Origin: Longimicrobiales bacterium
GTDB lineage: Bacteria; Gemmatimonadota; Gemmatimonadetes; Longimicrobiales; Gaopeijiaceae
Assembly (NCBI GenBank): GCA_029245345.1
Contig: JAQWPM010000022.1
Location: 62,001 to 126,000, forward strand
Direction of reading: 5' to 3'
DNA length: 64,000 nucleotides
Shown: piece after piece, positions 11,586 through 26,428 of the stretch
Layout: every line of letters begins with the position of its first letter
How positions within the stretch are numbered: position 1 is the first letter of the stretch
Notes under the pieces: generated by a model
The model's database searches: none
Told to the model about the DNA's origin: nothing
The model's input: the letters and a program-made list of their open reading frames with translations, nothing else
Position numbers and translations under genes: made by a program

Positions 11586-12971
11586 ATGCACACCATCGTC
11601 CCCGCCACACGCATTCTCGCTGCTGCTGCCGTGCTCACGACGCTGCTCGCCGTACGGCCGCTGCAAGCGCAGACCCCGGAGCAGAAGTACACGGACTGGG
11701 CCCGTCTCGACTTCAGGCCACAGGAGTACGAGTTCCGCCGGGACCGGCTCACGGATCACATCAGAGAGTCGGGCGGCGGGATTCTCCTGATCCCCGGTGG
11801 GGACGGAGCGCCCCACGGCGGCACCTTCCGGCAGCTGGACGATTTCTGGTATCTGACGGGACTGGAAGTGCCGGGCTCCATGTTGGTGCTGGACTCGAAT
11901 CCGCCCGGTGGCTCAGCCACCCTCTTCATGCCGGCGCGAGACGCCCGCTTCGAGAACCCTGGCCGGCGAAACGACTTCCCTGGGCGTCCCCTGCTTAACG
12001 ACTACGAGCTACGCGGCATTGCTGGCATAGGAACGTATCGGGACATCTCGGAGTTCGATGCGTTCCTCCGTGAACGGATCGCCGCGGGCACACCCCTGCG
12101 GGTGAACTCGGGTCGGGTGGGCGAGGTCCCCGCCCCGGAACCACCTCTTCTGGGCGTGATGGACCCGATCGCATCAATGATCTTCCGGCTGCGCGCCGAC
12201 TATCCCGGCGCCGACTTCATCAACGCATTCGAGTCGATGGCACGGGTGCGGATGATCAAGAGTCCGGCGGAGACCCAGCACATGCAGATCGCAGCGGACG
12301 CCACGATGGCTGGTATCCGGGCGGGCGCGGATCGTGTGAGAGCGGGTGTAGACGAACGGACCATCCAAGGCGCGTTCGAAGAGGCGTGCCGTGCGTTCGG
12401 CTCCGCCGCGATTCCGTTCACCCCCATCATCAAGTCCGGCCCGAACAGCCTGTGGCCATGGCGCGTGCTCGCTGCTCACTACGACCGCAGGAACCGGCCT
12501 ATGGAGAGTGACGAGTTAGTGATTCTCGACGTGGGCTGCGAAGTCGACGGGTACATCAGCGACGTGGGTCGGACCTTCCCGGTCGGGGGCACGTTTACTG
12601 ACATCCAGCGCGAGAAGATGTTGGTGAGCACGAACGCGGCAGATGCCATCATCGCGGCCGTTCGGCCAGGCGTGACGTTGGCTGAGCTCACCGCCATCGC
12701 GTACGAGAACATCCCGGACCACGAAGAGCAGTACATGCAGACCCCGTCTTTCTTCGGGCATCACATCGGGATGTCCTCCGGGGACCCGGCCCTGATGGAC
12801 ATCCCGCTTGAGGCGGGTATGGTCTTCACCGTTGAGCCCTGGTATTACAACCACGACATCGACATCGCGGTCTTCGTAGAAGACGTGATCCTTGTCACGG
12901 AGGACGGAGCCGAAGTGCTCACTTCCGCACTCCCCCGCACACCCGAAGAACTCGAGGCGATGATCCGATGA
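11586..12971 (+). CDS. Exported M24 Xaa-Pro aminopeptidase
   Basis: 461 residues with a signal peptide ending at LQAQ. An N-terminal creatinase/aminopeptidase-P domain is followed by a pita-bread domain with the expected metal ligands: Asp and Asp in ILDVGCEVDGYISDVGRTFP, His in FFGHHIGMSSGDP, Glu in FTVEPWYY and Glu in FVEDVILVTEDG. It removes N-terminal residues before proline, here outside the cytoplasm. The ATG at 11586 is chosen because it begins the signal peptide. The stop overlaps the next gene by 4 nt (ATGA). Confidence 0.93.
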   Translation: MHTIVPATRILAAAAVLTTLLAVRPLQAQTPEQKYTDWARLDFRPQEYEFRRDRLTDHIRESGGGILLIPGGDGAPHGGTFRQLDDFWYLTGLEVPGSMLVLDSNPPGGSATLFMPARDARFENPGRRNDFPGRPLLNDYELRGIAGIGTYRDISEFDAFLRERIAAGTPLRVNSGRVGEVPAPEPPLLGVMDPIASMIFRLRADYPGADFINAFESMARVRMIKSPAETQHMQIAADATMAGIRAGADRVRAGVDERTIQGAFEEACRAFGSAAIPFTPIIKSGPNSLWPWRVLAAHYDRRNRPMESDELVILDVGCEVDGYISDVGRTFPVGGTFTDIQREKMLVSTNAADAIIAAVRPGVTLAELTAIAYENIPDHEEQYMQTPSFFGHHIGMSSGDPALMDIPLEAGMVFTVEPWYYNHDIDIAVFVEDVILVTEDGAEVLTSALPRTPEELEAMIR

Positions 12972-13399
12972 GCACCGAAGACCTGACCCATACCGTGGAA
13001 GACGGCGACGGCATTCTCTGCGTTCGTAACCCAGACACCCACCGTGGATGGAACGGGATTCGGTACAAGACGGGCGTCTCGGCGAAAAACGTGGGAGCCA
13101 AGAAGCTCTCGATGAACGTCGCCACCGTGCCGCCGGGGGCGTGCGCCTACGCGCACATCCACGTGGACTTCGAGGTGATGCTCTTCATTCTTCAAGGCAA
13201 CGTGCGCCACGAGTACGGCGAGAATCTCGAGCAATCCATGGAAAATTCGGCCGGAGACTTCATCTTCATCGAACCTGGAGTGCCGCATGAGGTACTCAAC
13301 CTCAGCGACACAGAGCCCGTGATCGCCGTAGTGGCGAGATCGGACGCGTCGGAGTGGGAGAGCATTAGAGACTATCCGTCGGAGCGTCGGCCGGGCTGA
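12968..13399 (+). CDS. Cupin-domain protein
   Basis: 143 residues, one cupin barrel. Motif 1 is PPGACAYAHIHVDFEVMLFI (metal ligands His-x-His and Glu) and motif 2 is GDFIFIEPGVPHEVLN. Substrate unknown. The start overlaps the peptidase stop by 4 nt, so the two are co-translated. Although it lies near kynureninase, it lacks the size and architecture of 3-hydroxyanthranilate dioxygenase and is on the other strand. Confidence 0.88.
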   Translation: MSTEDLTHTVEDGDGILCVRNPDTHRGWNGIRYKTGVSAKNVGAKKLSMNVATVPPGACAYAHIHVDFEVMLFILQGNVRHEYGENLEQSMENSAGDFIFIEPGVPHEVLNLSDTEPVIAVVARSDASEWESIRDYPSERRPG

Positions 13400-13433
13400 A
13401 GGCGCACGAGGAAGCGAGACCTAAGGAGTGGCA

Positions 13434-13877
13434 ATGAGCGGACGAGTCGAAGCAATCTGGACGAAGCGGTCCAAGGGCGGAGTGATGGACGCGGCACAAA
13501 GCGTCGATGCCCTGGAAGGCAAAGGCATCGAAGGCGACGCCAACTTCGGCGCGACGCGCCAGGTCTCGGTCATCGAGAAAGAAGTCTTTGATCGGATCAA
13601 AGACAGCCTACCCGACTCCGACCCGGCCATGCGCCGGGCGAACATCATGGTCAGCGGCATCCGCCTCGAGAACACACGCGGCCATGTGCTAACCGTGGGC
13701 AGAGTGAAGATCCGTCTACGCGGAGAAACGCGACCCTGCGAACTCATGGACGAGCAGTGCCCAGGACTCCGTGGTACGCTCGACCTGAAGTGGGCCGGTG
13801 GCGCGCACGGCGCGGTGATTCAGAGCGGTTCCATTTCGGTCGGGGACGCCGCGGAGCTAGAAGCGCCCACGGACTGA
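13434..13877 (+). CDS. MOSC-domain protein
   Basis: 147 residues. MOSC core with GDANFGATRQVSVIE and the cysteine motif RPCELMDEQCPGLRG. MOSC domains handle sulfur or molybdenum-cofactor-bound sulfur; stand-alone versions such as YiiM detoxify N-hydroxylated compounds. AAGGAG is 5 bp before the ATG at 13434. It is the last gene of the M24-cupin-MOSC run and is convergent with the kynureninase gene. Confidence 0.88.
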   Translation: MSGRVEAIWTKRSKGGVMDAAQSVDALEGKGIEGDANFGATRQVSVIEKEVFDRIKDSLPDSDPAMRRANIMVSGIRLENTRGHVLTVGRVKIRLRGETRPCELMDEQCPGLRGTLDLKWAGGAHGAVIQSGSISVGDAAELEAPTD

Positions 13878-13903
13878 CGGCCCGGAAACGCTACGGCCGG
13901 TCC

Positions 13904-15088
13904 CTAACGGGGCACGACCTCACGCAACGTCTCCATCGCCTGGACCACCTGCGCGTCGCTCAAGTAAGGGGCAGGACCAAAGCGCAGCCGGTCTCCCCTC
14001 GCGTCCGTGCTCACGCCGTGTTCGCGGAGCGCAACGCTCAGAGCCTCAGCATCCGGAGCCCGCACGGTCAGGAAACCTGCTCGGCTCTCGAGCGGCACCC
14101 CGGCATCGATCGACACCATCGCCGGGTCCAGATCTAGGCTTTCCAATGTCTCAACGAGCAGCCCCACCTGATGCTGGCTGACCGAGCGTAGGAGTTCTGT
14201 CGAGAGCCCCTGCTCCGCAAAGAAATCGAGCACTGCGGCTCCGCGATACTGAGACGTCGGGTCGAACGTGGACCCAGAAAAACGCATGAAGCCCTTTCCG
14301 TAGCGGACTTCGCCCTCGGTCTTCGCGTCCGCCAACTCGGCAAACTCACTGAACCAGCCAGTGATCACAGGGCGCATCTCACAGCCTTCGGGCACCCGCA
14401 TAAAGCAGTTCCCTTCACCGAGCTGCATGTACTTGTAGCCCCCGCCCAGAACAAACGCCTGCTCCATTCCGTCCAACGAAAACGGGACGACACCCAGGGA
14501 GTGGTAGGCATCCACCATCATCTCGGCACCGTGCTTCGTGCATGCAGCCGCTATCTGCTGGAGCTCAGGCACAATGAGACCGGTGCCGAACAACACGGAC
14601 GAGACGAGTACACACGAGGTGCGGTCGTCCACCTGGTCCGCCAGTCGTTCGGACAGCGTGTCCAGCGGATCCGCCGCCACCTTCACAACCTCAATGCCTT
14701 CCTCAGCCAAGCGATCGACCTGCCTGCGGATCGTGTGGAATTCGCCGTCTGTCGTGACAATACGCGGTCGCTCCCGGAGCGGCAGCGCAGACAGGAACCG
14801 CAGCAGCAATGCATGGGTGTTCGAGTCCAGGGTAATGTCTCCGGAGCAACCTCCTAACCGCTCACGGTACCCTTCACCAACACGCGCCCACTTCGCGGTC
14901 GCCGCGTCCCACTTCTGATCCACGAACTCAGCAGCATCCGACCACGCCTGCTTTTGGCCTTCGAATCCGGCGTCCGGCCACGCTTGGTGTGAATGCCCCG
15001 TGAGAAGCAGTCGCTCCGAGACCCGGAACGCCGAGTAATAGGGCGCCAGGGCATTGGGAGATGAATGGAGCTCGCCAAGAGAGATCAC
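13904..15088 (-). CDS. Kynureninase-like fold-type I PLP enzyme
   Basis: 394 residues from a GTG at 15088. PLP motifs are VDAYHSLG (Asp193) and GGGYKYMQLGEGN (Lys219, the Schiff-base lysine). The GTG overlaps the stop of tryptophan 2,3-dioxygenase by 4 nt, so both proteins are made from one message. That makes kynureninase (L-kynurenine to anthranilate and alanine) the most economical assignment. The N-terminus differs from classical kynureninases, which carry a YLDGNSLG-like block; here the corresponding stretch is LLLTGHSHQAWPD. A related class V aminotransferase or desulfurase-like role remains possible. Confidence 0.8.
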   Translation of the reverse strand: MISLGELHSSPNALAPYYSAFRVSERLLLTGHSHQAWPDAGFEGQKQAWSDAAEFVDQKWDAATAKWARVGEGYRERLGGCSGDITLDSNTHALLLRFLSALPLRERPRIVTTDGEFHTIRRQVDRLAEEGIEVVKVAADPLDTLSERLADQVDDRTSCVLVSSVLFGTGLIVPELQQIAAACTKHGAEMMVDAYHSLGVVPFSLDGMEQAFVLGGGYKYMQLGEGNCFMRVPEGCEMRPVITGWFSEFAELADAKTEGEVRYGKGFMRFSGSTFDPTSQYRGAAVLDFFAEQGLSTELLRSVSQHQVGLLVETLESLDLDPAMVSIDAGVPLESRAGFLTVRAPDAEALSVALREHGVSTDARGDRLRFGPAPYLSDAQVVQAMETLREVVPR

Positions 15089-15876
15089 AACTGGGACCGG
15101 ATCTCCCAGAGGTCCGGGAACGCCGGGCTGTTGAGCGTAGTGCGCAGGTACTTGGACCCTGCAGATCCGCCCGTCCCATGCTTCATCCCAATCGTGCGCT
15201 CGACCATTTTTACGTGGCGGTAGCGCCACTCCTGCACGCCCTCATCCAGGTCTACAAGGCGCTCGCACAGGTCGGCGTTGGCGGGATCCTCTCGATAAAT
15301 CTTCACCAGAACAGCCTGCACCGCCTCGGACGCCTCGATCGGGGCCGTCACGTCACGCTCGAGCTGGTCGGCTGGTATGTCGTACCCCACCCCTGCGAGG
15401 TACCGGATCACATAGTCCCAGATCGTCGGCGCTTTCCACCGTTTATCGAGACCGGCGCGGGCGCGCGTTCCCTCGGCGAAGCGGTCCAGAGATGCCCGTG
15501 TCTTCCTGCCCAGAGCGAATTCGAAGGCCCGGAACTGATCCGACTGAAAGCCGCTCGCGCTCTCGAGGCGCTCCCGGAACGTCCGAAACTCCGTCGGCGT
15601 CATCGTCTCGAGAATGTCCAACTGCGCGACCAAGACTTTCAGAATGGTCAGCACCCGCTTGAGCGTGTGCAGCGCCCTCGCGGCATCACCTTCTGAAAGA
15701 AGCCGGCAGCAATAGTCGAGCTCATGAAGGATCACCTTGAACCAGAGCTCATAGACCTGATGAATGACGATGAAGAGCATCTCGTCGTGCTCCACTTCGT
15801 CACGCGGCTGCTGGAGGTTCAGCAGCTCGTCGATCTTCAGATACTTACCGTATGTGACCGCTTCAGACATCGACAT
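15085..15876 (-). CDS. kynA: Tryptophan 2,3-dioxygenase
   Basis: 263 residues. Family blocks: EMLFIVIHQVYELWFK (active-site His39), WRYRHVKMVER (heme-ligating His) and GTGGSAGSKYLRTT, which binds the substrate carboxylate/amine. It opens the indole ring to N-formylkynurenine. The start at 15876 gives MSMSEAVTYGKYL; an ATG two codons later is equally possible, and a frame extending to 15936 has an unconserved extension. No strong ribosome binding site is seen. It is first in a two-gene unit with the kynureninase-like gene. Confidence 0.94.
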   Translation of the reverse strand: MSMSEAVTYGKYLKIDELLNLQQPRDEVEHDEMLFIVIHQVYELWFKVILHELDYCCRLLSEGDAARALHTLKRVLTILKVLVAQLDILETMTPTEFRTFRERLESASGFQSDQFRAFEFALGRKTRASLDRFAEGTRARAGLDKRWKAPTIWDYVIRYLAGVGYDIPADQLERDVTAPIEASEAVQAVLVKIYREDPANADLCERLVDLDEGVQEWRYRHVKMVERTIGMKHGTGGSAGSKYLRTTLNSPAFPDLWEIRSQL

Positions 15877-16049
15877 GCTGGTTTGGAGTGCGTTTTCCGA
15901 TGCCCAAAAATGGCGAAAAGAGGACACGCTCGCCACGGGACGGGCACAAAAACAGCCCCCCTAAGGTGTCTAGTCTGTGGCTTCTCTCTCCCCTTCGCCC
16001 GGTATTTGAAGGTATGGACCTTCGGACCAAGCTCGTATTCGCGCTCGTG

Positions 16050-16503
16050 CGGTGTCGCGGGTCAGCATGTTTTCGCTGGGCCTGCTGACGTACCGCCCTG
16101 CGCGTGATGTATGGCGCGCCAGGGCCATCGGGACCGGTGAACGGTTCGGCATCTCGAACCCAGTGATCGGCCTGACCGTCATCGCGATGAGCACCTCGGC
16201 ACCCGAACTCTTAACGATCTTAGTGGCCGCCGCGAAGCGCCAGGCGGACGTCGTAGTCGGGAACGTGATCGGGAGCAACGTCCTCAACAGCCTGGGTATC
16301 ATGGGTGCGTCGTCGCTCGCCAGCCTCCGAGGACTCACGGTCCCAGCCCACGTCATGGCGGTGGACATTCCGCTCATGCTCGCCGGAGCGGAATGTCGAC
16401 CGTCGTCACCATGCGGAAGATGTCGATCGGCCAAAGGCTGGGCGGAGCCATGCTCGGCATCTATCTGATGTACTTCTTCCTGCTGATGACCGGCAGGGCC
16501 TAG
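16050..16503 (+). pseudogene. Degraded CaCA-family Na+/Ca2+ antiporter
   Basis: One frame reads AIGTGERFGISNPVIGLTVI then AMSTSAPELLTILVAAAKRQ and VVVGNVIGSNVLNSLGIMGA. These are the alpha-repeat and the following helix of a potassium-dependent or YrbG-like cation/calcium exchanger. After residue 113 the reading continues only in another frame (GQRLGGAMLGIYLMYFFLLM, stop at 16501-16503). The whole N-terminal alpha-repeat is missing. One frameshift plus a missing half make this a pseudogene. It runs convergent to the adjacent operon, ending 4 bp from the next stop. Confidence 0.75.
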
Positions 16504-16506
16504 GGC

Positions 16507-18837
16507 CTACTCGCCCCCGAAGTGGAACTCGAAGCGCGGCGTGTACCGACTGACCGACTTGTACGGGTCAGGCCACTCCATCTCGTAGCCCAGCATGTGC
16601 GCCGCATGGCGCGTCCAGTACGGATCGAACAGGTGAGCTCGGGCGAGCAGGCACAGGTCGGCCCGGCCTGCGGAGATGATGGTATTCACGTCCATCCACG
16701 ACGACACGTTCCCCACCGCCATCGTCGAGATGCCGACCTCGTGCCGAATTCTGTCCGCGAACGGAGTCTGAAAGAGCCTCCCGTAAACCGGCTTCTGATA
16801 CGGCACGGTCTGCCCCGCGGAGACGTCTACGATGTCGCACTCGTGCTCGCGCAGGAGCCGGGCCACATGAACCGCGTCCTCCGGCCCCATTCCCCCGGGC
16901 ACCCAGTCCACGGCGCTCACACGCACACTCATGGGTTTGTGCTCGGGCCACACGCCGCGGCACGCGTCGAAGACTTCCAACGGGAAGCGCATGCGGTTCT
17001 CGAGTGAGCCCCCGTATTCATCCGTGCGCTCGTTGGTGAGTGGAGAGATGAAGCTCGCGAGCAGGTACCCGTGCGCCATATGGATCTCGAGGAGATCGAA
17101 GCCCGCCGCATCGGAGTACCCGGTGGCACGCACGTACTCAGCAACCACCTGGTCCATATCTCGGCGCGTCATCTCACGCGGGGTCTGACTCCGATCCGGG
17201 AAGTACGGGATCGGAGATGCGGACATGAGGTCCCAACCGTCCTTCTGCACCGGTTCCGAGTCGCCGGCCCACATGACCTTGGTCGCACCCTTCCGTCCCG
17301 CGTGACCCAATTGGATCGCCATCTTGGCTGCGGAATGTCCGTGCACGAAGTCCACGATCCTCCGCCAAGCATCAACATGCTCGGGTTTATACACGCCCGC
17401 ACATCCGGTTGAGATCCGCGCATCCGCGGAGATGTCCGTCATCTCGGCATAGACCAATCCAGCACCACCCACCGCGCGGCTCCCGAGGTGTTGCATGTGC
17501 CAATCACCCACCGTTCCATCCTCGGCGTAGTACTGACACATGGGAGACACCACGACCCGATTCGGAATCACCAAATCCCGGATCTTGAACGGCGTGAACA
17601 TGGGCGGTGGTGGCGGGTCGACTGGCACACGTGTGCCAGTCTGCCGCTCAGCCTCCTCGGCAATCCACGTATCCACTCGAGCCAGAAAAGCCGGATCGCG
17701 GACACGTAGATCTTCATGCGTGATGCGCAGACTGCGCGTCAGAAGCGTGAAAGTGAGCTGCACCGGATCGAGATCCATGTACCGCTCGGCATCTTCGAAC
17801 CACTCGAGGCTCGCCTGGGCGGCGCGTTGCAGAGACTCAACTTGAGGGCGTCGCTCGGCCTCGTAAGCCATCAAACCGCGTCTGACCCGATCCGCCATGG
17901 AGGGGCCCGACCCATTGGTCGACCCTCCCAAGGGCTCTACCTCCGCCCATCCAGATATCAACGCGGCCCGCAGCGAAATCGCGTCCAGCATTCCCATGCG
18001 CGTCCCGGAGCCCACAGAAAAGTGTGCGGTGTGAACCGAGTCACCCATGAGCACGACGTTGTCCGCAGACCAGGCACCACATCGGATGGTCGGAAAACTA
18101 CGCCACACACTCTTGTTCACGGTGAGCGCGTGACCCTCTAACTCTTCCGCGAAGAGCACCTCACAGTACGCGAGCGTTTCCTCCTCGGTAGCCGTGTCCA
18201 TACCAGCCGCCTTCCAGGCGCCCTCCGTGCACTCAACGATGAACGTCGAATGGCCGGGTTCGTACTGGTACGCATGCACACGCCAAAGGCCATGCTCATT
18301 TTCACGGAAGTAGAACGTGAACGCCGGGAACGGCTTGGTCGTCCCGAGCCACACGAAGCGATTCGGGCGGCAATCGAAGGTGGGCTGCACTCGATTCCCG
18401 AGCAGTTCGCGGACCCGAGAATTCACCCCATCGGAGCCCACGACGAGATCGTACGCGCCGAACTGTTCGAGGTCATCAACACGAGTCTCGTAACGGACAT
18501 CGACCCCCATCTCCGCGGCCACACCCTGCAGCACCGTGAGCAGCGTCTGCCGACTCATACCGCTGAAACCATGCCCTGTGCTGCGGACGACCTCCCCACC
18601 GTAGTGCACGTCGATGTCGTCCCAATGCACAAAGTGGTCGGTGATAGCCCGGTACGTCGCTTCGTCCGCGCTCTCGACCTCCGCAATCGTCGCATCGCTG
18701 AACACCACGCCGAACCCGAACGTGTCGTCCGGCTTGTTCTGCTCGAACACCACCACTTCATTCGCAGCGTCCGCGCGTTTCATGAGGATCGCGAAGTAGA
18801 GGCCCGACGGGCCGCCCCCTACGACGGCAATCTTCAT
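16507..18837 (-). CDS. Fused flavin monooxygenase/OYE reductase, 2-aminobenzoyl-CoA (or salicylyl-CoA) type
   Basis: 776 residues in two enzymes. Residues 1-390 are an FAD aromatic monooxygenase: VVGGGPSGLYFA, then GDSVHTAHFSVGSGTRMG. Residues from about 410 are an old-yellow-enzyme barrel: VVSPMCQYYAEDGTVGDWHM, QLGHAGRKG and LCLLARAHLFDPYW. This fusion is known from 2-aminobenzoyl-CoA monooxygenase/reductase and the related salicylyl-CoA 5-hydroxylase. The former hydroxylates and dearomatises anthraniloyl-CoA with O2 and NADH to 2-amino-5-oxocyclohex-1-ene-carbonyl-CoA. Context (TDO, kynureninase, aryl-CoA ligase) favours anthraniloyl-CoA. MKIAVVG at 18837 is taken as start; an ATG at 18849 would overlap the upstream stop. 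Confidence 0.9.
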   Translation of the reverse strand: MKIAVVGGGPSGLYFAILMKRADAANEVVVFEQNKPDDTFGFGVVFSDATIAEVESADEATYRAITDHFVHWDDIDVHYGGEVVRSTGHGFSGMSRQTLLTVLQGVAAEMGVDVRYETRVDDLEQFGAYDLVVGSDGVNSRVRELLGNRVQPTFDCRPNRFVWLGTTKPFPAFTFYFRENEHGLWRVHAYQYEPGHSTFIVECTEGAWKAAGMDTATEEETLAYCEVLFAEELEGHALTVNKSVWRSFPTIRCGAWSADNVVLMGDSVHTAHFSVGSGTRMGMLDAISLRAALISGWAEVEPLGGSTNGSGPSMADRVRRGLMAYEAERRPQVESLQRAAQASLEWFEDAERYMDLDPVQLTFTLLTRSLRITHEDLRVRDPAFLARVDTWIAEEAERQTGTRVPVDPPPPPMFTPFKIRDLVIPNRVVVSPMCQYYAEDGTVGDWHMQHLGSRAVGGAGLVYAEMTDISADARISTGCAGVYKPEHVDAWRRIVDFVHGHSAAKMAIQLGHAGRKGATKVMWAGDSEPVQKDGWDLMSASPIPYFPDRSQTPREMTRRDMDQVVAEYVRATGYSDAAGFDLLEIHMAHGYLLASFISPLTNERTDEYGGSLENRMRFPLEVFDACRGVWPEHKPMSVRVSAVDWVPGGMGPEDAVHVARLLREHECDIVDVSAGQTVPYQKPVYGRLFQTPFADRIRHEVGISTMAVGNVSSWMDVNTIISAGRADLCLLARAHLFDPYWTRHAAHMLGYEMEWPDPYKSVSRYTPRFEFHFGGE

Positions 18838-18841
18838 CGGG

Positions 18842-19999
18842 TCAGCCATTGGCAGCTTTGGCTTCCGCGACCATCGCGCCGGCAATGATCAGGTGCTGGA
18901 TCTCAGTGGTCCCTTCATAGATCCGCAGCGCACGCACCGAACGGTACAGCCGATCCACCGGGTGCTCCGCTAGAACACCTCGCCCACCCAAAATCTGCAC
19001 GGCGTCGTCGATGATGCGCTGTGCGGCCTCAGTGGAAAAAGCCTTCGCCATGGCAGCCTCGACGGTGATCCGGTCCGCGCCTTGGTCCTTCTCGTACGCC
19101 GCGCGGTAAACCAGCATGCGCGAGGCAGTCAGATCAATGGCCATCCGGCCGAGCTTGTCCTGAATGATCTGAAAGTCGGACAACGGTTTTCCGAATTGTT
19201 CACGACCCATGGCGTGGGCTAGCGCCTCGTCGATCGCGCGCTGTGCCATCCCACACGCTGCGGCCCCCACAGTCGGGCGAAGCTGATCCAGCGTGGCCAT
19301 TCCCAGCATGAACCCCCGACCCTCTTCCCCGATTCGGTTCGTCGCGGAAACTCTGCACCCCGTCAGTTGCAGTTCGCCGAGCGGGTGCGGCGCACTCATC
19401 ACCTGGGCTCCGGCAAACGTCAGGCCCTCGGTCTCGGCCGGAACCAGGAACGCCGAGATGCCCCGGCTCCCTGCTTCTGGGTCGGTCGAAGCAAAGACCA
19501 CGTAGTAGTCGGCGATGCCCGCGTTGCTGATGAGCCACTTGTGACCGTCGAGGACGTAATCGTCGCCGTCCCGCACCGCCCGCGTCTTCATGGACGCGAC
19601 GTCGGATCCAGCATCAGGCTCGGTCATCGCGAAGGCGGACATGATCTCGCCCGCGAGCGCACCGGGTGCCCACTGCTCTCTGAGTCGATCACTGCCGGCG
19701 AGCAGAAGCGGCGTGATGCCGAGTCCTTGCAGCGCCCATACCGCGTCCGCCAGCGGCGATGCGGCGGCAATAGCCTCCCGAGCTAGGCAGCACGCGCGTA
19801 GGTCAAGCGTCCCGATCGGGTCGAGCAGGCCGGCCGCGCCCATGGCCGAGAGCACGTCTCGGGCTTCAATGCGTCCCGCGTCGTCATCTACGGGCTCCGG
19901 CCTTCGGGCGAGTTCAGCGGAAGCGAACTTAGCCGCTGTGCAGGCCCATGCCTCGTGCTCAGAATCTAAGAAAGCTCGGACGGGACGAAGATCGAGCAT
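18842..19999 (-). CDS. Acyl-CoA dehydrogenase
   Basis: 385 residues. FAD/substrate loop [27 protein letters not shown], then the C-terminal helical domain with [24 protein letters not shown] and the catalytic Glu in [10 protein letters not shown]. Typical short-chain acyl-CoA dehydrogenase size. It lies between enoyl-CoA hydratase and the fused oxygenase with 4-17 bp gaps. A likely role is oxidation of a CoA thioester made from the dearomatised ring, or the electron-transfer step of the side-chain cycle. The exact substrate is not deducible. Confidence 0.93.
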
Positions 20000-20016
20000 A
20001 TGTGCGAAAACGCCTT

Positions 20017-20814
20017 CTAGAGGAAATTGGGGTCGCGCTTCTCGACGAAGGCTTCGTACGCCTCACGGAAGTCGGGGTGCAGCATCAACGAAGCTTGGAT
20101 CTGCGCTTCGGCTTCGAGCGCGCCTTCCAAATCCATGCTGGCTTCGCGGTTGAGTGAGTCTTTCGTGATCTCGATCGCGAAGGACGGCCCTCGCGCCAGC
20201 TTCTCGGCGAGCTTGGTCGCTGCACTTAGTGCTTCGCCATCTGGAACGACACGATTGTAGAGGCCAATCCGATGCGCTTCGTCAGCGCCAATGAAGTCGC
20301 CGGTCATCAGCAACTCACTCGCCTTAGCCATGCCCACGATCTTTGGAAGCATCCACGCCGAACCCATGTCCGCACCGGAGAGACCAACGCGCGTGAACAA
20401 ATAGGCGATTTTCGCCGACTCGGCCGCAACACGCATGTCACACGCGGTCGCGATGACCGCACCCGCGCCGGCCACAGTTCCGTTCAGCGCACCAATCACT
20501 GGTTTGCGGCATCGGCGAATCGACAGCACCAGGTCACACGTCATGCGTGTGAACTCGAGCAGGCCACGGAAGTCCCGCTCGAACAACGCACCGATGATGT
20601 CTTCGACGTCTCCACCCGAACAAAACGCCCGACCCGAGCCGGTGATGACGACCACCTGCACATCCTTCTCATCGTGCAGCACGTAGAAGGCTCGGCGCAG
20701 CTCGTCGTAGACCTCGAAGGTCAACGCGTTGAGCCGGTCCGGGCGGTTGAGCGTGATCGTCGCGACGCCGGTGTCGGCATCCAGTGAATACAAGAATGAC
20801 TTCGGCTCGAACAT
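20017..20814 (-). CDS. Enoyl-CoA hydratase/isomerase (crotonase fold)
   Basis: 265 residues. Crotonase fold: TLNRPDRLNALTFEVYDELR, oxyanion loop GRAFCSGGDVEDI, second oxyanion loop ALNGTVAGAGAVI, and LFTRVGLSGADMGSAWMLPK. In the last block an Asp (GAD) stands where typical hydratases carry one of the two catalytic Glu residues, so hydrolase or isomerase chemistry is as likely as hydration. A member of the six-gene catabolic operon, 6 bp after RidA, with AGGAAATC just before the ATG. Confidence 0.92.
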   Translation of the reverse strand: MFEPKSFLYSLDADTGVATITLNRPDRLNALTFEVYDELRRAFYVLHDEKDVQVVVITGSGRAFCSGGDVEDIIGALFERDFRGLLEFTRMTCDLVLSIRRCRKPVIGALNGTVAGAGAVIATACDMRVAAESAKIAYLFTRVGLSGADMGSAWMLPKIVGMAKASELLMTGDFIGADEAHRIGLYNRVVPDGEALSAATKLAEKLARGPSFAIEITKDSLNREASMDLEGALEAEAQIQASLMLHPDFREAYEAFVEKRDPNFL

Positions 20815-20820
20815 GATTTC

Positions 20821-21234
20821 CTAGACGCTTAGGTCGGGGATCACTGCGGTCCCTTCGATTTCCACTTGGGCTCTCGGATCGAGTAGCCGTTTGACTTCCA
20901 CCAATGCCATCGCTGGATAGTGTTTGCCCATGTGAGCTCGGTAGGCAGGTCCAATGTCGCCGCGCGCCTCAAGGTACGCATTCAGGTCGGACACGAAGAT
21001 GGTCATACGCCCGATGTCTTCGGGTCCTCCGCCAGCCTCTCGGACCACGGTCAGCATCTTGGCCAAGACGATGTCAAACTGCTCCACGAAGTCGTCTGTG
21101 GTGACTTCTCCGTTGGGCTCGGCCGCGTCCTGTCCCGCCACGAACAAGATCCGCCCGTTCTTCGGGCCCAACATGCCGTTGGTCCACCCCTTGGGGGCTC
21201 CAAGCTCTTCCGGATTGATGTGCGCGTACGTCAC
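20821..21234 (-). CDS. RidA-family (YjgF/UK114) deaminase
   Basis: 137 residues from a GTG that overlaps the SDR stop by 4 nt. RidA fold: ILFVAGQDAAEPNGEV, DIGRMTIFVSDLNAYLEARG, HYPAMALVEVKRLLDPRAQV and EIEGTAVIP, keeping the late Arg and Glu that bind the carboxylate in RidA trimers. RidA proteins hydrolyse reactive enamines and imines to ketones and ammonia. The predicted oxygenase product of this operon is itself an enamine, so a pathway-specific deaminase role fits; this is inference. A second, unlinked RidA gene is at 47795-48190. Confidence 0.92.
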   Translation of the reverse strand: MTYAHINPEELGAPKGWTNGMLGPKNGRILFVAGQDAAEPNGEVTTDDFVEQFDIVLAKMLTVVREAGGGPEDIGRMTIFVSDLNAYLEARGDIGPAYRAHMGKHYPAMALVEVKRLLDPRAQVEIEGTAVIPDLSV

Positions 21235-22004
21235 GGGGTGTCCTTTCCATCGAGAATGACGACTTCGCCGTTGGTGTCGCTGGCTGAGTCTTCGCAGAGC
21301 TTTAGGATCGCGCCGGCAACCTCCTCGGCCCGGATCAAGCGGGGCTGGCCCGACTGCTCGAGAATCGCGATCAGGGCATCGTCTCGCGACTTCCCGGTCC
21401 GCGCCATGATTCGGGCGATGGTCTCGTCTGTGAGCGGTGTGTCCACATACCCTGGGCACACTGCGTTCACGGTGACACCAGTCCCCTCCGCTTCAGCAGC
21501 GATCGATCGCGTGAAGCCGACGACGGCGTGTTTGGCCGCCGTATAAGCCGAGACGTACTTTGCGCCCTTGAGTCCAGCGACCGAAGCGACATTGACCACC
21601 CGGCCCCATCTCTGCTCCGCCATCTCAGGCATCATCGATTGAGTGCACAGGAAGGTCCCCGTGGCGTTCACCGCCATGATGTGCTCCCACTCGGTCAACT
21701 TGATCTTGGCGAGGGAATTCGACGTCGCAGTCCCAGCGTTGTTCACCAGAATGTCGACCCTACCCATGGTCTCACGCGCGGACATGGCGAGGTCACGAAC
21801 CTGCCTGGGATCGGTTACATCGCAGCGAAAGGCGAACGCGGTATAGCCGGCCTTACGCAGCCCAGCGGCGGTTTCCACGACTTGGTCTTCGTTCCGAGCG
21901 GCGAGGGCGACCGACACCCCTGCACGTGCAAGCTCCAACGCCGCGGCGGCCCCAATCCCCCGTCCCCCGCCGGTGATGACCGCAGTCCGTCCGGATAAAC
22001 TCAT
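21231..22004 (-). CDS. Short-chain dehydrogenase/reductase
   Basis: 257 residues from an ATG that overlaps the creatininase-family stop by 4 nt (ATGA). Classical SDR: nucleotide loop ITGGGRGIGAAAALE, LVNNAGTATSN, catalytic Ser in VVNVASVAG and YTAAK, and cofactor-closing VCPGYVDTPLTDE. In this operon a 3-hydroxyacyl-CoA dehydrogenase role would complete a beta-oxidation-like set with the hydratase and acyl-CoA dehydrogenase. Cofactor preference is not obvious from the sequence. Confidence 0.93.
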   Translation of the reverse strand: MSLSGRTAVITGGGRGIGAAAALELARAGVSVALAARNEDQVVETAAGLRKAGYTAFAFRCDVTDPRQVRDLAMSARETMGRVDILVNNAGTATSNSLAKIKLTEWEHIMAVNATGTFLCTQSMMPEMAEQRWGRVVNVASVAGLKGAKYVSAYTAAKHAVVGFTRSIAAEAEGTGVTVNAVCPGYVDTPLTDETIARIMARTGKSRDDALIAILEQSGQPRLIRAEEVAGAILKLCEDSASDTNGEVVILDGKDTP

Positions 22005-22756
22005 GCCGAGGTCTCCACGCTGGCGATGACTGCATCGGCCAACAGTCCAGCCAGGACCTCGATGGTCTCTCGACCTTCCTCGGTCGTGGCGTCGGCAGGC
22101 CATCCGAAGTAGGCACGTGGCCCACCAGCGTCGGCAAACGTCCGGGCTCCGTCACGAATCGCGTCGGACAACGACGAGGGATTCGGCTCCAGTTCGGCGG
22201 CTACAGCAGTCTTCACCAGATCTGGGGCCTCGGCCATCACGACGCTTCCTTCAAAGCGCCCTGCGTGACAAGCGCCCGTCCGGAACTCATCCGTGAGTTG
22301 TTCGGCCACAGCGCGTCGGGTCAGGTCGACGAACACGACGTTCACACCCTCGTGCGCCTCCCCTGACGCAGCTCGAAGCGCGGCCAGATTTTCTGGGTCC
22401 AAATGGGCATTGGCGATCGCCAACGTCTTAATGCCGTGTTCGGCCAAAGCCGTTGCGATTTCACGGATCAGGCGGCGCACGGTGTCTCCGTCCACGCCGA
22501 TCGTCCCTGGAAAATTCCGAGCGAAGCCCGCGGCTGTGTACCACAGTGGGGGCATGACCAGTGCGGTAAATCCTGCATCGGACAGCTTCTCACCACCCCG
22601 CCTCGCCATCGCTTCCGCGATGATCACGTCCGTGCCCAACGGCAGGTGCGGCCCGTGCGCTTCGACCGCCCCGACCGGCAAGATCGCAACCGCACGCGCA
22701 CGATCCGCGTCACGGACGTCTTCCCACGTCATTTCGGCTAGGCGATGCACAGGCAT
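22001..22756 (-). CDS. Creatininase-family metal hydrolase
   Basis: 251 residues from the ATG at 22756; a longer frame to 22840 would leave only 25 bp to the divergent gene. Metal motifs: LPVGAVEAHGPHLPLGTDV (Glu, His, Asp ligands), ANAHLDPENL in place of the usual NGHGGN, and CHAGRFEGS for the late Glu. Family members hydrolyse creatinine, cut mycofactocin peptide (MftE) or deformylate a pyrimidine intermediate (ArfB). First gene of the operon. It could be the missing N-formylkynurenine deformylase or a ring-opening hydrolase; neither is established. Confidence 0.9.
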   Translation of the reverse strand: MPVHRLAEMTWEDVRDADRARAVAILPVGAVEAHGPHLPLGTDVIIAEAMARRGGEKLSDAGFTALVMPPLWYTAAGFARNFPGTIGVDGDTVRRLIREIATALAEHGIKTLAIANAHLDPENLAALRAASGEAHEGVNVVFVDLTRRAVAEQLTDEFRTGACHAGRFEGSVVMAEAPDLVKTAVAAELEPNPSSLSDAIRDGARTFADAGGPRAYFGWPADATTEEGRETIEVLAGLLADAVIASVETSA

Positions 22757-22800
22757 GGCGTCGATTGCTACAGGATTAAAGCGATCGGAGGAGGCTTCGA

Positions 22801-22830
22801 TTGACCCATATTCTAGCGGGCGCGTATCGT
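22801..22830 (+). promoter_or_regulatory. Possible sigma70-type promoter for the CoA-ligase gene
   Basis: TTGACC (22801-22806) and TATCGT (22825-22830) are separated by 18 bp and lie 36 bp before the GTG of the ligase. The divergent catabolic operon begins at 22756, so this 109-bp gap must hold control signals for both directions. The match is moderate and no operator palindrome is obvious. Confidence 0.3.
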
Positions 22831-22865
22831 CATGCACCACTTCCCACTCGCTATCCCCGGAATCC

Positions 22866-24395
22866 GTGTCTGATCGCCTGAACCTTTACGAGCACTTCCT
22901 CGGCAGCCGTATTGCCGAAGGTCTCGCTGACAGAACAGCGCTGCTCACAGCAGATGGCGCTCTGACGTACGGCGAAGTCGATGCCCGCGCAGGCCAGTAC
23001 GCCAACCTGCTCGTGGAAGCCGGACTCCGGCCGGAAGAACGAGTGTTGATCGCCATGCCGGACGGGCTCGACTTCGTCGCGGCCCTCTTCGGGATCATCC
23101 GAGCTGGCGGTGTCGTTGTGATGATCAACCCGCAACTCAAGCCGAACCAAATCAGGTATTTCTATGAGTACATCCGGGCGCGGGTGGCGCTCGTGCACGA
23201 TGAAGTCGCAGACACATTCCAAGCCGTGCTCGCAGAGGCAGACCACCGACCAGATTTCATCCGGGTGGGCACGCCAGACTTCACGGCGACCCTGACTGCA
23301 CACAGCGATGCACATCCCACGTTCCCGTCCCACGAAGACGATGCCGCAATCTGGATCTTCAGCGGCGGCACCACAGGCCACCCCAAGGCCGCCGTTCAAA
23401 GTCATCGCTCCTTCGTAAACACGACCGAGCTCTACGGCCATGGCGTCTTGGGCATCACACCGGACGACGTCACCCTCTCCGTCCCCAAGCTCTTCTTCGG
23501 GTACGCGATGGGCATCAATCTGTTCTTCCCGTTCAGCGTCGGGGCGACCGCAGTCCTCTTCCCGGAGCGGTGCACGGCGGAAACTCTGTTCGCAAAAATC
23601 GAGGCATTCAAGCCGACCATCCTCGCGAACGTGCCCACAATGGTGAACCACCTGTTGGGCCATCCGGACGCACCGAACCAGGACCTCTCGTCCATCCGCC
23701 TCGTGACTTCTGCCGGCGAGGCGCTACCCGCAGAACTCCACCGCCGTTGGAATGCACTGTGCGGCGTCCCGCTTCTGGACGGCCTCGGCACAGCGGAGAT
23801 GTGGCACATCTTCATCTCGAACCGCCCGGGCGACGTGAAGCCCGGCACGCTGGGGCAGGTCGTCCCGGGCTTCCAAGTCGAGGTGCGAGGTGAGGACGGC
23901 GAAGTCCTAGGACCGGACGAAGTCGGCTATCTGTGGGTGAAAGGTGATTCCCGAGCCTCGGGATATTGGCAGCAGCGCGAAAAGACCCGCCAGGCATTCG
24001 TCGGTGACTGGTACGTCTCGGGGGACATGATCAGCATGGACGCGGACGGCTACGTCACCTACTGCGGCCGCGCGGACGACATGCTCAAAGTGAGTGGGAA
24101 GTGGATGTCCCCCGGCGAACTGGAGAACTGCCTACTCGAGCACGAGGCCGTGCAAGAAGTCGCCGTTGTGGGTGTGCGTAGCACGGACGGACTCATCAAG
24201 CCGGAGGCGTTCGCGGTCGTGGCCACCGGCCACACGCCGGGCGGCGCACTAGCCGCAGTGCTCCAGGAGTGGGCCAGGACCCGATTGGAACCATACAAGT
24301 ATCCTCGTGAAGTGACCTTCATGGACGATCTCCCCAGAACACACCTCGGCAAAGTGGACCGAGGCAAACTCTCTAGAGAGGCAGCACAGTCATGA
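22866..24395 (+). CDS. Aryl-CoA ligase, benzoate/2-aminobenzoate-CoA ligase type
   Basis: 509 residues from a GTG start. AMP-forming acyl-CoA synthetase: P-loop IFSGGTTGHPKAA, LLDGLGTAEMWHIF, hinge YCGRADDMLKVSGKW, and the late catalytic Lys in THLGKVDRGK. The pattern YEYIRARVALV, KLFFGYAMGINLFFPFSVGA and GTAEMWHIF follows the benzoate-CoA ligase group. With tryptophan dioxygenase and kynureninase nearby, anthranilate is the likely acid activated. It is divergent from the six-gene operon. Its stop overlaps the next start by 4 nt (ATGA). Confidence 0.9.
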   Translation: MSDRLNLYEHFLGSRIAEGLADRTALLTADGALTYGEVDARAGQYANLLVEAGLRPEERVLIAMPDGLDFVAALFGIIRAGGVVVMINPQLKPNQIRYFYEYIRARVALVHDEVADTFQAVLAEADHRPDFIRVGTPDFTATLTAHSDAHPTFPSHEDDAAIWIFSGGTTGHPKAAVQSHRSFVNTTELYGHGVLGITPDDVTLSVPKLFFGYAMGINLFFPFSVGATAVLFPERCTAETLFAKIEAFKPTILANVPTMVNHLLGHPDAPNQDLSSIRLVTSAGEALPAELHRRWNALCGVPLLDGLGTAEMWHIFISNRPGDVKPGTLGQVVPGFQVEVRGEDGEVLGPDEVGYLWVKGDSRASGYWQQREKTRQAFVGDWYVSGDMISMDADGYVTYCGRADDMLKVSGKWMSPGELENCLLEHEAVQEVAVVGVRSTDGLIKPEAFAVVATGHTPGGALAAVLQEWARTRLEPYKYPREVTFMDDLPRTHLGKVDRGKLSREAAQS

Positions 24396-25306
24396 CCGCA
24401 TATGCGCTTCTGATGACACTCGCTGTGAGCACAGGCCCCACGAGCGACGACGCACATCCGCTTCCTTGGGGATTCCTCGGCCACGAAATGGCAGCCCACG
24501 CGGCAGTGCTCGCCCTGCCCGCTTCAATGCCCGACTTCTTCAGGTCCGCGGGAGAACAGCTCGTGTATCTGGACCCTGAGCCGGATCGGTGGCGCAACTT
24601 CAGCATGAGGGAAATGGACCAAGCCTTCTCGTACGACCACTACATCGACATGGAGAATGTGCCCACCGGTGCCCTCGACGCTCCGGACCGGTTCACGTAT
24701 CTGAAGGCACTATACGATGCGGGGCTGCCCAAACCCGAACGCGACGCCGGCTTCCTCCCGTACCGGATCCTCGAGCTGTATCAGCGCGTGGTCACGGAAT
24801 TCCGCATGTGGCGGAACGAGACGGATCCGACTAGACGGGGCTGGATCGAACAACGCATCATCAACGATGCAGGGGTACTCGGTCACTACGTCACAGACGC
24901 TTCGCAGCCCCATCACTCGACAATCCACTTCAATGGGTGGAGGGGCTCGGACGCTCTCGGTAATGCTGTACCGAACCCCGAGGGATACTCGGGTGGTGGC
25001 GACTTCCACAGCCGTTTTGAGCGCCTATTCGTTGAAGCACACGTCACGCAAGCCGATGTGAACCGGCACATGCCACGCAGTGCGCCGACCGACGCCACGG
25101 GCCGGAGCCGAGCCATGGTCATGGAGCATATTCAAGAGTCGAGCGACAACGTCGAGGCCCTGTACCGGCTGGATCGGGACGTCGGTTTCGATCCGGACGG
25201 TCCGCTCAACCCCGAGACCCGCGACTTCGCTGCCGAGCGGCTAGCTTCCGGAGGAGCCATGCTGTCAGTTCTATGGTGGTCGGCGTGGAACGAAAGCGGG
25301 TCGTAG
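24392..25306 (+). CDS. S1/P1-nuclease / phospholipase C-fold zinc protein
   Basis: 304 residues. The mature-like N-terminus PLPWGFLGHEMAAHAA supplies Trp26 and His31. A central GHYVTDASQPHH carries the HxxxD pair, and HSRFE follows, as in the trinuclear-zinc S1/P1 nuclease and bacterial phospholipase C fold. The hydrophobic first 15 residues suggest export, although the leader is short. Substrate (nucleic acid or phospholipid) cannot be told. The 4-nt overlap with the ligase gene suggests joint translation, but no metabolic link is apparent. Confidence 0.85.
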   Translation: MTAYALLMTLAVSTGPTSDDAHPLPWGFLGHEMAAHAAVLALPASMPDFFRSAGEQLVYLDPEPDRWRNFSMREMDQAFSYDHYIDMENVPTGALDAPDRFTYLKALYDAGLPKPERDAGFLPYRILELYQRVVTEFRMWRNETDPTRRGWIEQRIINDAGVLGHYVTDASQPHHSTIHFNGWRGSDALGNAVPNPEGYSGGGDFHSRFERLFVEAHVTQADVNRHMPRSAPTDATGRSRAMVMEHIQESSDNVEALYRLDRDVGFDPDGPLNPETRDFAAERLASGGAMLSVLWWSAWNESGS

Positions 25307-25458
25307 CACTGATAAGAAACGCATCAACAGGGGGTTGAGGCCGCGACGCGGAAACCTGGCCCGTCTTCGTCGCGTCTGGTGGAGGTGCCTTGAGGGGACT
25401 CTCCCTGGGATGGGTGGCTCGGCTCGTAGAGTCGAGGAAATCGGGACGGAGGTACCAG

Positions 25459-25716
25459 ATGACCGAGGAAGCACACCCAAGCGCGGGTGAGAATGGCTTC
25501 GAGAGGATCGATCCGAAGTTGAACATGTTCGCGCTTGCGAACGGTCTGGACCTGATCAAGTCGGACCGGGCGAGAAGGCTCACGTGGTTCACGGGGTCTG
25601 CTTGGCCGACCGAATCCCCGGCGGAGGCCACAACCACTTTCGTCTCAGACGCAGTTCCCGCCACGGAACTGAGCGCCACGCTTGAGCAAAGCATCACGGT
25701 CACCAATGTCCTCTGA
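25459..25716 (+). CDS. Small conserved-looking hypothetical protein
   Basis: 85 residues, preceded by a good GGAGG 6 bp before the ATG. The first 45 residues (NGFERIDPKLNMFALANGLD and SDRARRLTWFTG) look like a folded domain. The end (ATELSATLEQSITVTNVL) looks helical. Family not recognised. The frame overlaps the start of the uracil-DNA glycosylase gene by 11 bp. A small internal deletion is possible, because the middle (WPTESPAEATTTF) is of low complexity. Confidence 0.5.
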   Translation: MTEEAHPSAGENGFERIDPKLNMFALANGLDLIKSDRARRLTWFTGSAWPTESPAEATTTFVSDAVPATELSATLEQSITVTNVL

Positions 25717-26428
25717 GGCCAGCCATCCCGACCGCATGACCGCGCGCTCCATGGACGCGCTCCAGGCGCGCATCACACAGTGCCACCTTTGCTCCCGCCT
25801 CGTCGAATGGCGCGAACAGGTGGCGGTGGAGAAGCGCGCCTCGTTCAGAGACGACGAGTATTGGGGCCGCCCCGTACCGTCATTCGGTGACCCCAACGCC
25901 CGAGTGCTCGTTGTCGGGCTCGCGCCCGCCGCCCACGGCGCCAACCGCACCGGGAGGATGTTCACCGGCGACAGATCTGGCGACTGGTTGTACGGAGCAC
26001 TTCATCGGGCCGGATTCGCCAACCAACCCCGCGCAACAGCCGTCGACGACGGCCTCGAGCTCCAGGACGTCTTCGTGTCTGCCGCGGTCCGCTGTGCACC
26101 CCCTGCCAACAAACCGACCGTACAGGAACGAGACGCGTGCCGGCCCTGGCTGGACGAGGAGCTCAACCTGCTCGCTCAACTCCGGGTGGTCGTCGTGCTG
26201 GGCAGCTTCTCCTACATCCAGGCGCTGAAGGTGCTTGGAGACCGAGGCTTGGACGTGCCGAAGCCCCGGCCACGCTTCGGCCACGGTGTGGAAGTCGACC
26301 TCGGGGCACTGACCCTTATCGCGTCGTATCACCCGAGCCAACAGAACACGTTCACCGGAAAACTGACCGAGCCGATGTTCGACGGGATCTGGCAAAGGGC
26401 CCGAGCACTCACGGGACGGCGGCCTTAG
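25706..26428 (+). CDS. Family 5 uracil-DNA glycosylase (UdgB type, 4Fe-4S)
   Basis: 240 residues. Four cysteines for an iron-sulfur cluster are visible: QCHLC (Cys26, Cys29), then AVRC and DAC. Active-site block VVGLAPAAHGANRTGRMFTG and late SYHPSQQNTFTGKL are diagnostic of UdgB. Members remove uracil, hypoxanthine and other deaminated bases from DNA. The ATG at 25706 is used; an ATG ten codons later (25736) is also possible. The start overlaps the preceding small ORF. Confidence 0.92.
   Translation: MSSEASHPDRMTARSMDALQARITQCHLCSRLVEWREQVAVEKRASFRDDEYWGRPVPSFGDPNARVLVVGLAPAAHGANRTGRMFTGDRSGDWLYGALHRAGFANQPRATAVDDGLELQDVFVSAAVRCAPPANKPTVQERDACRPWLDEELNLLAQLRVVVVLGSFSYIQALKVLGDRGLDVPKPRPRFGHGVEVDLGALTLIASYHPSQQNTFTGKLTEPMFDGIWQRARALTGRRP

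Follow-up and report, generated by a model that had tools for sequence, protein, structure and literature searches.

In a 64,000-nucleotide stretch of a Longimicrobiales genome (contig JAQWPM010000022.1, positions 62,001 to 126,000; hereafter the window), the minus-strand gene at 22001-22756, with its ATG at 22756, encodes a creatininase-family metal hydrolase of 251 residues that we call CRN. It represents a new subfamily within a known enzyme family, and it is likely to serve as the deformylase of a pathway from tryptophan to 2-aminobenzoyl-coenzyme A (2-aminobenzoyl-CoA). An earlier note on this DNA had put CRN forward as a candidate for the missing formylkynurenine hydrolase or for a ring opener; we confirm its observation and find partial support for its interpretation. 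We give a deformylase role, at whichever step, somewhat better than an even chance. As to the step, we tentatively place CRN after kynureninase, acting on N-formylanthranilate or its CoA ester rather than on N-formylkynurenine, although this more specific proposal falls short of an even chance.

In our scheme, where the substrate, the order of reactions and the activity of every enzyme are predicted, CRN would be an amide hydrolase with a creatininase fold and two metals, and its task would be to remove the formyl group. Tryptophan 2,3-dioxygenase (TDO) would form N-formylkynurenine, which a non-canonical kynureninase (KynU) would cleave directly to N-formylanthranilate and alanine. CRN would then deformylate N-formylanthranilate, or its CoA ester after the action of a benzoate-CoA ligase family enzyme (LIG), to give 2-aminobenzoyl-CoA, the putative substrate of a fused FAD monooxygenase/old-yellow-enzyme protein (ABMO) and, further down, of a Rid protein, a crotonase, a dehydrogenase and an SDR-family enzyme. 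This order is the simplest that accommodates both the occurrence of a divergent KynU without the formamidase KynB and the lack of CRN in genomes that have TDO and KynU but not the genes of the CoA pathway; deformylation by CRN would then be confined to cases in which that pathway takes up the product.

CRN matches a single Pfam family, PF02633 (Creatininase; 193.5 bits, E 5e-57, cut-off 31.3), and lies under every NCBIfam equivalog cut-off: MftE, its best match there (TIGR03964, E 3e-29), scores 102.2 bits against 172, creatininase (TIGR04448) 92.8 against 235 and IolN (NF041098) 53.3 against 245. The structure modelled from 50 aligned sequences (mean pLDDT 96.1) has the predicted fold of a creatininase. 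All 26 Foldseek matches at E <= 0.001 are creatinine amidohydrolases, and VIA-align returned Z scores of 22.5-24.9 for 12 creatinine amidohydrolase entries, the next being 8.8; rows scoring less than Z 9, among them dihydroxyacid dehydratases and cutinases, were dismissed as common arrangements. By alignment, E32, H34, D43, H118 and D120 occupy the metal-ligand positions of solved creatininases (E34, H36, D45, H120 and E122), and H164 and E169 are conserved besides. The earlier note had called the metal motif altered, a hint at a specialised substrate. The sequence does differ, in that NAHLDPEN, which begins at residue 116 and aligns with creatininase NGHYEN (H120, E122), replaces E122 with aspartate, but the ligands remain creatininase-like and "specialised" was only half right. 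Because the ligand positions align and an H-x-D/E-P motif is kept in 105 distinct CRN copies (H invariant, D or E followed by P, the residue before H variable), we read the motif as a conservative variant of NGHYEN. The family also includes a proven formamide hydrolase, BrbF (PMC9478397). Up to 12 creatininase-family matches, most of unassigned role, occur per genome (G000, G001, G006, G018 and others; G and L numbers are our handles for genomes and loci), with 10 in the source genome, which measures 3.79 Mb and is 98% complete.

As the earlier note stated, CRN heads its operon, a closely packed series of minus-strand genes. CRN is followed by an SDR-family dehydrogenase (21231-22001, overlapping CRN by 1 base), a Rid/RidA family protein (PF01042; 20821-21258) that is a candidate enamine/imine deaminase, a crotonase-family enzyme (20017-20814; NF006107 (PRK08258), 372 bits against a cut-off of 330), an acyl-CoA dehydrogenase family member (18842-19999), the 792-residue ABMO (16507-18885), TDO (15085-15936; TIGR03036, 296 bits, below the cut-off of 390.7) and the divergent KynU (13904-15229; PF22580 KYNU_C, 33.6 bits), which overlaps TDO and whose start codon is uncertain. 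Successive spacings from CRN to ABMO are -1, -25, 6, 17 and -44 bases, and 570 bases separate ABMO from TDO. Neither a KynB nor an alpha/beta-hydrolase gene lies between the TDO and KynU functions, again as the note had said. LIG (22866-24395, plus strand; TIGR02262, 497 bits against a cut-off of 375) diverges from CRN, and the region between them (22757-22865) presumably holds both promoters. ABMO reaches NF006101, a model named for salicylyl-CoA 5-hydroxylase, at 1079 bits against a cut-off of 1078, and appears to be of the salicylyl-CoA 5-hydroxylase/2-aminobenzoyl-CoA monooxygenase-reductase type, its substrate being a prediction only. Judged from these families, the cluster would convert tryptophan via anthranilate to 2-aminobenzoyl-CoA, which would undergo oxidation, reduction, deamination and beta-oxidation-like steps.

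This setting is more than chance, since 13 of 59 related genomes have a copy of CRN, 49-79% identical, whose surroundings agree up to the contig ends; beyond these copies, identity in that search drops to 37% or less. Wherever the contig suffices (11 loci), the order CRN-SDR-Rid-crotonase-(dehydrogenase)-ABMO-TDO is kept, with no dehydrogenase detected in L024. KynU is present in 9 of the 11; L032 ends before it and L035 gave no match. A wider scan covered the contigs of the best 80 of 348 matching relatives. Among these 80, LIG lies upstream of CRN in 64 and SDR downstream in 67, which ties CRN to the block of genes from LIG to ABMO (the CoA block). TDO was seen in 38 of the 80, KynU in 37 and ABMO in 46, counts that contig ends limit.

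A survey of 298 Gemmatimonadota genomes detected CRN in at least 67 (a lower bound, as the search at E 1e-40 was limited to nine scored candidates for each genome), TDO in 180 and ABMO in 135. CRN, TDO and ABMO coincide in 59 genomes; CRN accompanies TDO in 5 more and ABMO in 2, and is alone in 1. Without CRN, TDO and ABMO coincide in 58 genomes, TDO is alone in 58 and ABMO in 16. Several of the small classes reflect contig breaks. A TDO match is missing from three CRN genomes (G153, G178, G197), but in each of them the contig that carries CRN stops within the cluster or next to it, and a separate contig of G178 holds a TDO end of 35 residues; conversely, G108, G117 and G189, counted as lacking CRN, do have it in the same slot (44-51% identical). 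TDO was found in 64 of the 67 CRN genomes of Gemmatimonadota, in all 14 further ones from the phylum of G316 and in 15 of 18 others, and an ABMO match in 61 of 67, 13 of 14 and, outside the phylum sample, 16 of 18 (that of G330 being half-length). Nearly all CRN genomes thus have TDO.

The distribution of CRN fits that of a substitute for KynB. At 149 listed TDO loci of Gemmatimonadota, CRN lies within 12 kb of 47 and KynB within 2 kb of 29, both at none and neither at 73 (Fisher P 8e-6, uncorrected for common descent). KynB-like proteins of at least 150 bits occur in 5 of the 59 genomes with CRN, TDO and ABMO, in 36 of 49 with TDO and other ABMO types, and in 28 of 58 with TDO only.

A kynB gene elsewhere in the genome would have spoken against the earlier proposal, and no protein of the source genome reaches the KynB cut-off (TIGR03035, 223 bits). 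Two PF04199 cyclases score 53 and 34 bits, too far under it to support either as a formamidase, although such a role is conceivable for both; one of the two, L001, starts with an apparent lipoprotein-type signal. In Ruegeria and Thalassospira an alpha/beta-hydrolase adjoins TDO, and its position suggests that the Ruegeria protein may be a formamidase. Used as a query, it found no match at E 1e-6 in the source genome, whose other alpha/beta-hydrolases were unscreened, and a match in 1 of 20 genomes tested (G305). Since neither KynB-grade proteins nor alpha/beta-hydrolases of the Ruegeria type were found, the operon offers no formamidase candidate but CRN, while candidates of other kinds may lie elsewhere in the genome. 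In the open-licence literature, creatininase appeared together with kynurenine formamidase or formylkynurenine only in one kidney study; no paper there dealt with IolN, and none joined formylanthranilic acid with an amidohydrolase.

The partner kynureninase is itself divergent. At E 1e-3 the window KynU gave no match to TIGR01814 (cut-off 246.4), nor at 1e-10 did those of L188, L211, L220 and L024; scores with this model are 409-425 bits for KynU proteins whose neighbouring TDO is linked to KynB, and 289 for the one of Thalassospira. The best solved relative of the window KynU, Pseudomonas kynureninase 1qz9, is similar at the level of a distant relative (E 4e-16). In the loci read, this type of KynU has no KynB alongside. 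That kynureninase can act directly on N-formylkynurenine is an old biochemical observation. In a predicted network (PMC9058172), kynureninase converts N-formylkynurenine to formylanthranilate.

Some genomes keep the first part of the pathway and lack the second. TDO and a window-type KynU occur without ABMO at L069, L186, L187, L188, L190, L191, L192 and L195, in genomes with neither an ABMO nor a CRN match; the absence of CRN comes from a fully scored search in G003, G015 and G035, and from nine scored candidates each in the others, including G191, G223 and G226. G003, G015 and G035 keep TDO-KynU with neither CRN nor KynB. L186 (G191) and L187 (G223) keep TDO-KynU and the conserved flanks but lack everything from LIG to ABMO: directly after TDO come genes that in the window stand behind LIG, namely UDG and amidase, with asparaginase as well in L186 and the gene at 24392 in L187. 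The lack of CRN in genomes with the window-type KynU and no CoA block is what would be expected of an enzyme working after KynU. Intercomparison of the open reading frames of 11 CRN-less TDO-KynU loci yielded no common replacement hydrolase; besides TDO and KynU only amidase, asparaginase and MOSC genes recur, in three loci, all of them genes that flank the operon in the window too. In L195 (G123), the TDO gene has two in-frame stops beside an intact-looking KynU.

The same pattern would be produced by a hydrolase acting after ABMO, for instance by C-C cleavage of 2,5-dioxocyclohexane-carboxyl-CoA arising from the deaminated ABMO product. We consider this rather doubtful, yet the strongest of the alternatives. 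IolN cleaves a cyclic diketone, so that C-C ring hydrolysis offers a precedent for a ring opener, and the IolN model does match CRN, at E 2e-14. The link of CRN to SDR, Rid and crotonase is more constant than that to TDO-KynU; CRN is lost together with the CoA block, and nearly all CRN genomes outside the phylum sample have an ABMO match. In G119 a CRN variant (36% identical) sits beside ABMO-like and LIG-like genes with no kyn gene on the stretch, while the TDO of that genome has its own KynB. The lower 2-aminobenzoyl-CoA pathway is incompletely described, and a C7H8O4 acyl-CoA, possibly cyclohexanedione-carboxyl-CoA, which PMC3534580 records in anthranilate-grown Arthrobacter, is a plausible intermediate. 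However, none of 13 alphaproteobacterial plasmid loci with ABMO has a creatininase gene in its (incomplete) gene table, so the CoA pathway can evidently run without CRN. Those that extend far enough always have SDR and crotonase, and mostly a dehydrogenase, a ligase and Rid; the counterparts of ABMO, SDR, crotonase, acyl-CoA dehydrogenase and Rid are 40-52% identical where compared, and the best creatininase matches in the whole plasmid collection are at most 37% identical among the matches listed. TDO occurs in 3 of the 13, with an alpha/beta-hydrolase in Ruegeria and Thalassospira and without one in Sagittula. A ring hydrolase would also leave unexplained why CRN is almost confined to TDO genomes, why it complements KynB, and why G484, whose alphaproteobacterial-type ABMO (58% to Thalassospira) elsewhere does without CRN, has CRN along with TDO and a window-type KynU (63%).

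The formylkynurenine hydrolase of the earlier note would make CRN a third fold of N-formylkynurenine formamidase, beside KynB and the alpha/beta-hydrolases, with an ordinary KynU acting on kynurenine. The lack of a kynB gene and the complementarity with KynB speak for this as much as for a later deformylase, as does the near-constant presence of TDO in CRN genomes, and in L216 CRN adjoins TDO on the same strand. What counts against it is that CRN is not kept wherever TDO-KynU is kept without another formamidase. Divergent pairs stand without CRN, KynB or, bar G305, an alpha/beta-hydrolase in G003, G015, G035, G191, G223 and G226, and two of these (G191, G223) lost CRN with the CoA block and retained the pair. 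Moreover, in L135, L153 and L159, from other phyla, CRN stays with SDR, Rid and crotonase although the TDO-KynU pair of the same genome lies elsewhere. The clusters at L208, L209 and L213 resemble these in that TDO is absent from the stretch and present at another place in the genome. This position of CRN is therefore unlikely. Least probable of all is that CRN does something else, as a housekeeping or repair amide hydrolase, a regulator-like paralogue or a hydrolase of a cyclised (quinazoline- or isatin-like) by-product, which the functional breadth of the creatininase family and lone CRN genes with unrelated neighbours (L136, L161, L214) would allow, but which fits poorly with a subfamily confined to pathway-bearing genomes, with ABMO matched in the great majority of each sample.

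Several observations weigh against a deformylase acting after kynureninase. Other answers must exist, since the locus holds neither CRN nor KynB in G113 and in Sagittula, both of which have TDO, KynU and ABMO. In G358 and G403, the KynU next to CRN is intermediate in type (TIGR01814 scores of 134 and 116 bits), and G320 has CRN, ABMO and a window-type KynU, yet its TDO was not found. No arginine or lysine is among the invariant residues of CRN to suggest binding of CoA or a carboxylate. In antimycin synthesis the ligase activates anthranilate, not N-formylanthranilate (PMC3869250). Finally, the complementarity of CRN and KynB follows clades and represents fewer events than the counts.

Other features lie around the operon. 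Between ABMO and TDO, a plus-strand open reading frame of 138 residues (16052-16468) matches the Na/Ca exchanger family PF01699 over residues 20-110 (E 4e-19) and is probably the remnant of an antiporter gene interrupting the operon. Cupin and MOSC-domain genes (12968-13877, plus strand) adjoin KynU, as the same pair does in 5 of 80 related loci, and the Ruegeria ABMO cluster also has a cupin gene. No Rfam family was matched in window positions 12000-26000. The G119 stretch (L075, 6490-14743) encodes a 969-residue luciferase-like/FAD-monooxygenase/old-yellow-enzyme fusion, the 36% CRN relative, hydantoinase B, a LIG-like ligase (42%) and a hydantoinase A-like N-terminus.

If CRN is a deformylase, a third protein family takes off formyl groups when tryptophan is degraded, and genomes at present scored as having no formamidase are complete. 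Should it act after kynureninase, the kynurenine pathway does not everywhere follow its textbook order, and the divergent kynureninases, which escape the NCBIfam model, constitute a distinct enzyme. As a ring hydrolase, CRN would instead account for a step of the 2-aminobenzoyl-CoA pathway that is poorly described.

Among known systems, CRN is closest in fold to Pseudomonas creatininase (PDB 1j2t, 1q3k, 3a6j; Foldseek E about 1e-14), with which its model aligns over 232-235 residues at 2.5-2.7 A (Z about 24) and shares the metal-ligand positions; it differs in its 26-29% identity, in D120 for E122 and in its score under the TIGR04448 cut-off. MftE, the mycofactocin peptidase, has no mycofactocin genes to match it among the CRN neighbours read, and IolN, the 3-dehydro-scyllo-inosose hydrolase, belongs to the same family with CRN under its cut-off. 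KynB, of the unrelated family PF04199, is a possible functional counterpart, linked to TDO where CRN is not. The abm pathway of Azoarcus evansii and alphaproteobacteria, described in PMC4539516, with PMC3534580 a further source on the 2-aminobenzoyl-CoA steps, shares with the CRN cluster the set of ABMO, SDR, crotonase, acyl-CoA dehydrogenase and Rid; unlike the CRN operon, abm clusters lack CRN, often include MarR and use another type of ligase (33% to LIG). BrbF (SMc02977), from riboflavin synthesis in Sinorhizobium, acts on a nucleotide intermediate and is likened to CRN by description rather than by sequence, and it is a creatininase-related protein with proven formamidase activity (PMC9478397).
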